From Collinsella sp. An2 (GTDB lineage Bacteria > Actinomycetota > Coriobacteriia > Coriobacteriales > Coriobacteriaceae), in assembly GCF_002160065.1 (NCBI RefSeq), contig NZ_NFJW01000007.1, forward strand, positions 56,609 to 120,608: a stretch of 64,000 nucleotides of DNA. The letters are read 5' to 3'. The position numbers were made by a program, and so were the translations under genes. The notes under the pieces were generated by a model that was not told the DNA's origin, ran no database searches, and worked only from the letters and a program-made list of their open reading frames with translations. Below are positions 2,949 to 46,810 of the stretch, piece by piece. The first letter of the stretch is position 1. Each line of letters begins with the position of its first letter.

Positions 2949-3941
2949 CTACGCAGGGCAGTCGGTCGAATCCCTCATCACGATCTCGAATCCCATCTTG
3001 ACCTCTCGCGGCACCATATCGTCGCTCGTCATGAGGCCCACCAGCATCTTGGCGGCCTCGACGCCCGAGGTCTTGTAATGGTGATGCACCGTCGTAAGCC
3101 GCGGCGTCACCACCTGCGACAGCTCGCTGTCGCCCACGCCGGTCACCTGCACGTCACGCGGCACCTCGATGCCGTTTTCGCGCAGGCAGGTAAGGGCGCC
3201 GTAGGCGATGGAGTCCGTCGCACACACAATGGCGTCCACCTGCGGATACGAGGCAAGCAGCTGCTCGCAGCACCCATAGCCTCCATCGACCGAGAAATCC
3301 GCGACCAGCTGGGCCTCGTCGGGAACATGCACGTCGCGCGAGCGGCAGGCTGCCAAAAAGCCATCGTGGCGCTGCCGGCCGGCAGCGACGTCCTCTTCAA
3401 AGACGCCGATGTACGCCGGGTGCTCGGCGCGCTCGAGCACGCGCTCGGTCACCTCGCGCAGCGCCCCAAAGTCATCCTGATAGACACAGGACCGGCCCGA
3501 AAGCACCTGGTCGAGCACCACGAGTGGAACGGGCAGCTGGTCCAGGACCTCGCGATGCGCCGGGGTGAAGACCGTGGCCACCAGAATGACGCCGTCAACC
3601 TTGCTGCGCTCGGAAAAGAGTCGCAGAAACTCGACCTCGCGCGCTGCATCGTTGTCCGTATTGGCAAGCAGCACCTGGTAGCCGGCATCGTTGAGAACAG
3701 ACGTGATACCGGCCGTCATGCGACCGACCGACGTTGAATTGATCTTGGGAATCACGACACCCACCACGTAGGACTTGCCGGTGCGCAGCGACTTCGCCTG
3801 CTGCGAGGGGACGTATCCCGTCTGCTCGATGACGCGGCGAATCGCGACGCGCTTCTCTTGGGAGACATAGCCGTCGTTGAGGTAGCGAGAGACCGTGGCG
3901 CGAGACACGCCCGCCATCTGTGCGATCTGGTTGATATCCAT
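2949..3941 (-). CDS. LacI family transcriptional regulator
   Basis: MDINQIAQMAGVSRATVSRYLNDGYVSQEKR HTH plus periplasmic-binding-like effector domain. Confidence 0.93.
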   Translation of the reverse strand: MDINQIAQMAGVSRATVSRYLNDGYVSQEKRVAIRRVIEQTGYVPSQQAKSLRTGKSYVVGVVIPKINSTSVGRMTAGITSVLNDAGYQVLLANTDNDAAREVEFLRLFSERSKVDGVILVATVFTPAHREVLDQLPVPLVVLDQVLSGRSCVYQDDFGALREVTERVLERAEHPAYIGVFEEDVAAGRQRHDGFLAACRSRDVHVPDEAQLVADFSVDGGYGCCEQLLASYPQVDAIVCATDSIAYGALTCLRENGIEVPRDVQVTGVGDSELSQVVTPRLTTVHHHYKTSGVEAAKMLVGLMTSDDMVPREVKMGFEIVMRDSTDCPA

Positions 3942-5305: not shown

Positions 5306-5905
5306 TTACATGCTGTGCGTCGAATAGATCTGCTCGTCCTGCCAAAGCTGAACGGCCTCGGCAAGCGAGCAGCCGCGCTCGGCGGCCGCGGCGCGCGTGG
5401 CATTGAGGTCGATAAGCCGCTGGTTGGACGAGCCGTGAAAGCGCAGCGAGATATCGTAGAGTTCCTGCACCCAGGGTCCATCGACGAGAACGTCGATACA
5501 GTCGAGCAGGCGATCCGTCACGTCGGTGTGGTGCTTGGCTCCCGACATGAGCTCGTCAAGCGTGTCGCCCGTAAAGCACCAGATCGTCTTGGCGGGAGCG
5601 CCGCCGGCGTGCTCTCCGCGAGGGAAACGTTCGCGAACCCGCTCGACAAAGTCCACGAGCCCCGCCTGGTTCTCGGGCTCCATAGGCTCGCCGCCCAGGA
5701 TGGTGAGTCCGTCGCAGAACTCATGGTCCAGGCTGTCGATGATCTTATCCTCAACCTCACGCGTAAAGGGCTCGCCCGCCTTGAAGCTCCAAGCACCCGA
5801 GTTGAAGCACCCCGGGCAGCCGCGCCGGCATCCGCTCACAAAGAGCGACGTACGCACGCCCTCCCCATTGGCGATATCGAAGTACTTGATCTCGGCGTAG
5901 TTCAT
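5306..5905 (-). CDS. nrdG: Anaerobic ribonucleoside-triphosphate reductase activating protein
   Basis: VSGCRRGCPGCFN radical-SAM CxxxxxxC/CxxC context, LTILGGEPM. Confidence 0.92.
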   Translation of the reverse strand: MNYAEIKYFDIANGEGVRTSLFVSGCRRGCPGCFNSGAWSFKAGEPFTREVEDKIIDSLDHEFCDGLTILGGEPMEPENQAGLVDFVERVRERFPRGEHAGGAPAKTIWCFTGDTLDELMSGAKHHTDVTDRLLDCIDVLVDGPWVQELYDISLRFHGSSNQRLIDLNATRAAAAERGCSLAEAVQLWQDEQIYSTHSM

Positions 5906-46400: not shown

Positions 46401-46810
46401 GGTCCTTTCCCCGCCCCGTAAGTAAGAAGGCGACGTTGCAGACCTTCCGAGGTCAATTTCGCTGCCCACTGGGCAGGGCGATTGCGCCACAGGTACAGCC
46501 GCGGTCAATTTCGTCGCCCGCTGGGTGGGGTGCACACGCCGAAGATATCGCTGCAGTCATTTTTGCCGTCCGCTGGGCATCCCTGTGCGCCGCGAAGGGT
46601 CTGGCCGGCCATTTTTCCCGCCCCGTGGGCAGTGGAGGCAGCGAAACGCCAGCAAACCGCGCCATACGGACTACTCCACTACCCAGCGCTCATCAGAATT
46701 GACCACGACCGCTTCTCATCCGCAACCACCATGCCCAGCAGGCGGGGAAACTGACCACAGGGTTGCCCTCTCCATGTATCACGCGCCCAGTGCTCGTCAA
46801 CATCGACCAC
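46401..46810. repeat. Array of a degenerate 23-nt motif at 52-bp period: 5 direct units followed by 3 inverted units
   Basis: Motif starts 46401 (weak), 46451, 46503, 46555, 46607 on + strand; inverted copies with GACCAC at 46701, 46753, 46805. Consensus roughly GGTCAATTTCSCCGCCCGCTGGG. Confidence 0.85.

Follow-up and report, generated by a model that had tools for sequence, protein, structure and literature searches.

Helically phased, inward-facing 52-bp arrays in Coriobacteriaceae genomes, with a nuclease-fold protein as their candidate partner

In centromeres of plasmids or chromosomes, such as parC/ParR, two groups of iterated protein sites (iterons, in steps of ~ 11 bp) make up one platform. 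The arrays described here differ from these centromeres in that they occupy ~ 15 loci per chromosome, proceed in 52-bp steps and face inward, and in that Par genes are absent among the neighbours examined. In REPIN-RAYT systems, inverted REPs flank the rayt gene, and gene and repeats co-evolve (PMC2817692). The homing endonuclease I-Bth0305I reportedly forms dimers on its target, which at nearly 60 bp is exceptionally long (PMC3943268) and comparable in length to the 52-bp array unit. The locus from which this analysis started lies in the window (i.e. the whole 64-kb stretch of DNA that was analysed) and is intergenic, with a HAD-type hydrolase gene on one side and a LytTR gene on the other. 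At 46450-46809, direct reading and a 27-column profile both give a 52-bp array of four forward cores followed by three reverse cores, with the following features:

46450..46476, + strand: forward unit 1, the 27-mer AGGTCAATTTCGCTGCCCACTGGGCAG; profile score 27.7 bits
46502..46528, + strand: forward unit 2, 52 bp after unit 1; 26.6 bits
46554..46580, + strand: forward unit 3, after a further 52-bp step; 21.9 bits
46606..46632, + strand: forward unit 4, innermost and degenerate, again after a 52-bp step; weak, at 13.5 bits versus 22-32 for the better units
46633..46678, no strand: central gap of 46 bp with the orientation switch; the unit starts are 73 bp apart, i.e. 7 helical turns
46679..46705, - strand: reverse unit 1; 31.7 bits
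46731..46757, - strand: reverse unit 2, after a 52-bp step; 29.6 bits
46783..46809, - strand: reverse unit 3, outermost, after a 52-bp step; 14.8 bits
46938..48125, + strand: neighbouring gene for a membrane-anchored LytTR regulator (PF04397, E = 7e-16), judged incidental and outside the system

A motif-blind detector, which counts the columns common to at least 5 of the 6 units in a stack of three forward and three reverse units, finds 16 of 27 columns conserved at the array versus a maximum of 9 elsewhere in the 64 kb. The array is therefore the outlier of the window, and the 52-bp periodicity with a switch of orientation, as claimed in an earlier note on this DNA, is real. The forward and reverse cores listed in that note are all present (with GACCAC at 46701, 46753 and 46805); the 'weak copy' it placed 50 bp upstream, at 46401, scores less than 3 bits and was left out of the count, being at most a decayed unit. 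Autocorrelation, which had been named beforehand as a refuting check, ranks lag 52 top in both arms with identities of 0.59 and 0.48, above all of 2000 shuffles in each arm (mean 0.27, maximum 0.42 and 0.43). A protein repeat was rejected, as had been argued before, since 52 is not divisible by 3 and every frame contains cores. Both Tandem Repeats Finder and a generic repeat search missed the array in the window, owing to the divergence of its spacers. The central gap contains neither conserved sequence nor clear structure.

The search for further copies in this genome and its relatives, which the earlier note had proposed, yielded a whole family. In the own, Enorma-type genome (G000), a pattern search returned 72 sites (versus 5 with a reversed control), nearly all within ~ 15 arrays; Enorma phocaeensis An718 (G002) has ~ 11 arrays, and a second Coriobacteriaceae genus has a set of its own. 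The Enorma catalogue comprises 26 arrays and 158 units from two species. Arrays typically consist of 5-9 units, at ~ 10-16 arrays per genome, and in the Enorma arrays forward units always precede reverse units, TGGTCA being the outer half-site. Every complete array has the switch as a constant feature, so it is to be regarded as architecture and not as the mark of the flipped satellite that had been suggested. Arrays are absent from the third genome of the genus (G001), where a scan without known motif covered ~ 240 kb, and among 397 genomes sampled evenly across the phylum, no other one matches the Enorma-type core.

The second genus was discovered with a sequence model of two units, which led to G021, and then with the relaxed pattern GGTCA N14 TGGG, occurring twice. 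Full sets are present in G009 and G021 (48 and 23 pairs, with 0 in the reversed control), and the remaining sampled members of the class gave no match to the relaxed pattern except for one isolated pair in G601. The core of this genus (TGGTCACGA....GACCTATGGGYGA) differs from that of Enorma, but both genera have the same spacing of half-sites, the same 52-bp step and arms that face inward. The deeply invariant features are therefore TGGTCA, the TGGG ~ 20 bp further and the geometry. Arrays with other cores were not found in stretches of G708 and G744 (~ 270 kb); the array-free status of relatives applies to the two core types searched. In IMG/VR, neither arrays nor relatives of the array-flanking gene B (see below) were found beyond chance single pairs, and a phage origin was rejected. 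A search of the open-access literature found no published description of such arrays, and the system appears to be previously undescribed.

For the most part, the arrays have commonplace genes without relation to one another as neighbours (IlvC, Tgt, Pta, DUF711, a glycosyltransferase, surface proteins). With a rough gene caller, the genes flanking 32 arrays are oriented in tandem in 20 cases, convergently in 8 and divergently in 4. Two arrays appear to be situated beside essential operons, one (L016, G000:C34:156.5 kb) between apparent rplL and rpoB genes and one (L019, G000:C45:43 kb) upstream of an mraZ-like gene, these names being judged from sequence.

Within the arms of the Enorma arrays, 85 of 108 steps measure 52 bp and 21 measure 51 or 53 bp. 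The distances from arm to arm (computed after removing lost units, at 52 bp each) are quantised in both genera, at 63, 73/74, 83-85 and 95 bp, i.e. 6-9 helical turns. Most two-armed Enorma arrays (20 of 24) belong to the 73/74 class, with single cases at 63 and 85, while the arm distances of 14 arrays in G009 give R = 0.96 at a period of 10.5 bp, a value as high as which was obtained in 0 of 200,000 uniform draws; a scan of periods from 7 to 15 peaks at 10.6 in this genome. The arms are 63-200 bp apart, and in no array is there cargo between them. The gain or loss of one whole turn is thus tolerated, no other changes of arm distance are seen, and this is direct evidence that the relative helix face matters. 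For evidence from sequence alone, whole-turn arm distances in two genera with different cores are an unusually clean sign of a symmetric protein assembly that occupies a single DNA face.

Conservation is concentrated in the half-sites. In nine pairs of orthologous arrays from G009 and G021 (paired by their flanks), the half-sites are 98% identical (somewhat inflated, because the units were found by their half-sites), the middle 81%, the spacers 70% and the flanking DNA 84-91%. In the orthologous Enorma pairs L011/L065 and L014b/L064, both members have the same flanking genes, with cores that align and spacers that are near-saturated. Purifying selection acts on the half-sites, which strongly supports a protein-binding reading, and most arrays are maintained.

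As for the turnover of the arrays, L010 and L012 share 77% identity along 317 bp including the spacers, and the identity ends at the outermost half-sites of L010. Their flanks are unrelated, and the borders of the copy coincide with the outermost TGGTCA/TGACCA; a target-site duplication is not seen by eye at these borders, but the copies are old. The pairs L014a/L014b and L061/L062 are homologous throughout, and ~ 3 of 11-15 sites are common to both Enorma species, a likeness of placement that could partly reflect a common insertion preference. The likeness of L010 and L012, together with the other homologous pairs and the small number of common sites, shows that an array can now and then be copied or homogenised as a unit, and that species differ by gains and losses of arrays, which are nevertheless retained once in position. 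The earlier idea of a decayed mobile repeat thus holds in part: the arrays are scattered over the genome, and there are cases both of copying as a whole unit and of decay, although the majority is maintained.

The only recurring neighbour of the arrays found so far is a gene referred to here as gene B:

G000:C34:28330-29316: gene B, for a Vsr/EDxHD-like nuclease-fold protein of 329 aa

Orthologs of gene B with at least 50% identity occur in 4 of 67 Coriobacteriaceae genomes (G000, G002, G009 and G021), which are exactly the array-bearing ones, and in 0 of the 63 others, an association that represents two independent lineages only. The four orthologs form one clade (support 97/91), and all four adjoin an array: in G000 gene B lies between two arrays (L014), while in the other three it has an array on one intact side, 135 bp after the gene in G002 (L064) and ~ 250 bp before it in G021 and G009 (L236/L251, L250). 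Array-free members of the same genera have only paralogs, with at most 43% identity over the full length, and G744 (85% complete), in which arrays of this type are absent, carries a sister lineage with 44-48% identity.

In the AlphaFold model of gene B (pLDDT 90.6), the C-terminal domain is similar to the homing endonuclease I-Bth0305I of the EDxHD type (3r3p; Foldseek probability 0.93, but E = 0.23) and also to NGO0050, and sequence profiles match 3r3p and 3hrl (E = 0.004). There is no Pfam transposase match, but a weak one to MTES_1575/DUF559 instead. Among 40 relatives, E193, D230 and H248 are invariant and D256 is nearly so, these four being possible counterparts of the active-site residues of I-Bth0305I, and the conserved residues also include E241 and K243. 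Gene B is most likely the partner of the arrays, being the best candidate on the sequence evidence, but it may instead be a passenger, because its paralogs are common in array-free genomes and the sister lineage in G744 is without arrays. In fact, this nuclease-fold family is much expanded, with 3-7 DUF559/MTES_1575-like relatives of gene B per genome in 10 of 11 Coriobacteriaceae genomes, array-free genomes included.

That every paralog of gene B has its own arrays was considered and rejected, as a core-independent scan of the surroundings of the paralogs detected no array; the 51-bp signal that it gave in G708 (L311) comes from a repeat coding for RGG. In G006 (L163:692-850), a gene B paralog adjoins a 53-bp direct repeat that is degenerate and lacks inverted arms. 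Just upstream of a distant paralog in G000:C20 (L022:2225-2380), there is a long inverted repeat (TTTCGTTTTTATGCAGTT...AACTGCATAAAAACGAAA) with a single isolated array-type core. Upstream of gene B in G002 (L064:2366-2896), one reverse core is recognisable (11.8 bits), apparently in a decayed counterpart of L014a. In L014, a 71-bp piece from the 3' end of a DUF6020 gene (3077-3148) recurs with 93% identity directly after the second of the arrays flanking gene B (5540-5610), which points to a local rearrangement involving arrays.

The reading preferred here, with a probability of roughly 0.55, is that of a two-component system comparable to REPIN-RAYT: the arrays, dispersed and maintained by selection, would be bound cooperatively and on a single DNA face by a sequence-specific protein, which is probably gene B. 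The array in the window would then offer such a DNA-binding protein a docking platform with multiple sites, and ~ 15 such platforms would occupy intergenic positions around the chromosome. Each 52-bp unit carries a bipartite site, with TGGTCA followed ~ 20 bp (i.e. two turns) further by TGGG, successive units are five helical turns apart, and the inward-facing arms are separated by 6, 7, 8 or 9 whole turns. With five-turn steps and whole-turn arm distances, all sites lie on one DNA face and could therefore be bound by one symmetric protein assembly. Gene B, being of nuclease type and located beside its cognate repeats, would spread or use the arrays, which, as dispersed repeats, are occasionally copied as units and otherwise maintained by selection. 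We infer that the assembly is symmetric and cooperative, that gene B supplies its protein and that gene B is the agent of array copying. The benefit to the host might be chromosome organisation or control of the flanking transcription units, or there might simply be persistence of a selfish pair.

A fuller version of this reading is put forward more tentatively: the arrays and gene B may constitute a new kind of two-component genome system in Coriobacteriaceae, in which a sequence-specific nuclease with a Vsr/EDxHD fold assembles on the dispersed, phased arrays. Together with them it would serve to organise the chromosome, or else it would maintain and copy them as a domesticated selfish pair. 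Nuclease and core would co-evolve within each lineage, for which the difference in core between the two genera speaks. If gene B binds the arrays, a free-standing nuclease-fold protein partnering dispersed regulatory or structural repeats would be a second, independent solution to the role of REPIN-RAYT. The system would also be a compact test bed, in that each genome supplies ~ 15 natural sites, a candidate protein is at hand, and the specificities are swapped between two sets of species.

The strong phasing and the selection would also be expected if the arrays dock a host protein other than gene B (e.g. a lineage-specific nucleoid-organising or transcription-insulating factor), with gene B as a bystander. 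The position of the arrays beside many unrelated genes, mostly co-directional or convergent, is what a chromosome-wide function predicts, and paralogs of gene B are common without arrays. However, the adjacency of gene B in four out of four genomes and the coincidence of its clade with the arrays are then left unexplained, and a limited search found no other candidate, so that this explanation, albeit one to be taken seriously, is considered unlikely. Considerably more doubtful is that the arrays are non-autonomous transposable elements, now largely immobile, whose cores are transposase end sites (IS21, Tn7 and Mu having several bipartite sites per end). Bipartite GC-rich half-sites around a variable, AT-leaning middle do resemble the direct repeats of IS21 ends (PMC10122671), the arms are inverted, copying has sharp borders at the outermost TGGTCA/TGACCA, and the two Enorma species have few sites in common (~ 3 of 11-15). 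Nevertheless, no array carries cargo between its arms, there is no clear IS21 in G000, the cores are absent from the IS21-type loci of relatives examined, and no target-site duplication is seen by eye at the borders of the old copies L010/L012. The cores have, moreover, been selectively retained long after saturation of the spacers, unlike parasitic remnants. Ends of IS21 or another transposon were rejected as an identification for the lack of linked istA/istB, of cores at the IS21-type loci examined and of cargo.

The array in the window lies 130 bp upstream of the LytTR gene, to which the earlier note had linked it, and it could in principle be a cis-regulatory element of this regulator; yet ~ 25 sister arrays adjoin unrelated genes, a LytTR regulator is absent among the other array neighbours that were domain-searched, arrays are absent from the LytTR regions of relatives examined, and LytTR homologs are widespread in array-free genomes, which makes the link very improbable. 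The chance that the array acts as RNA, in the form of repeated structured units or one long hairpin, is close to negligible: the inverted arms could pair via GGTCAA/TTGACC and CTGGG/CCCAG, but 135 aligned units give no Watson-Crick covariation (best z of 2.65 versus a null maximum of ~ 2.8), folding z relative to shuffles is ~ 0 for units and spacers and -0.4 (marginal) for centres, there is no Rfam match, and phasing by helical turns would be meaningless for RNA. A cooperative protein-binding array with its cores on one DNA face, as the earlier note had also proposed, is in contrast strongly supported by the quantised arm distances, the purifying selection on half-sites and the lack of RNA structure.

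With protein binding as the preferred reading, the arrays can be set against described systems. A CRISPR array was rejected, as CRISPR needs near-identical repeats in one orientation, whereas here the cores vary, the orientation reverses and cas genes are absent among the neighbours examined. IS21, Mu and Tn7 (PMC10122671) likewise have two inverted ends, each with more than one bipartite site of ~ 20 bp for protein binding, but the arrays differ in their 52-bp helical stepping, the absence of cargo and of a linked transposase, and the selection on their sites. With I-Bth0305I and other Vsr-like, DUF559 and MTES_1575 proteins, gene B is predicted from its model to share the fold of the catalytic domain, and it may share the spaced conserved E, D, H and D. 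It differs from I-Bth0305I in being free-standing beside arrays rather than intronic, in its N-terminal part, and in that its supposed sites are many and conserved, where I-Bth0305I has one cleavage site.

The REPIN-RAYT and REP-BIME systems have in common with the arrays that dispersed intergenic inverted repeats are accompanied by a nuclease-type gene flanked by its cognate repeats (PMC2817692), that gene and repeat types co-vary between lineages, and that presence of the gene correlates with presence of the repeats. The partner in REPIN-RAYT is, however, an IS200/IS605-like HUH tyrosine transposase, whereas gene B has a Vsr/EDxHD-like fold; its repeats are hairpin-forming palindromes, whereas the array units are non-palindromic, without hairpin and helix-phased; and it comprises > 100 copies, versus ~ 10-16 arrays per genome here, with spacers that are mostly unrelated. 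These differences in the partner protein and in the repeats, which are neither palindromic nor able to form hairpins, keep the arrays and gene B outside REPIN-RAYT proper, which is instead their closest functional parallel.
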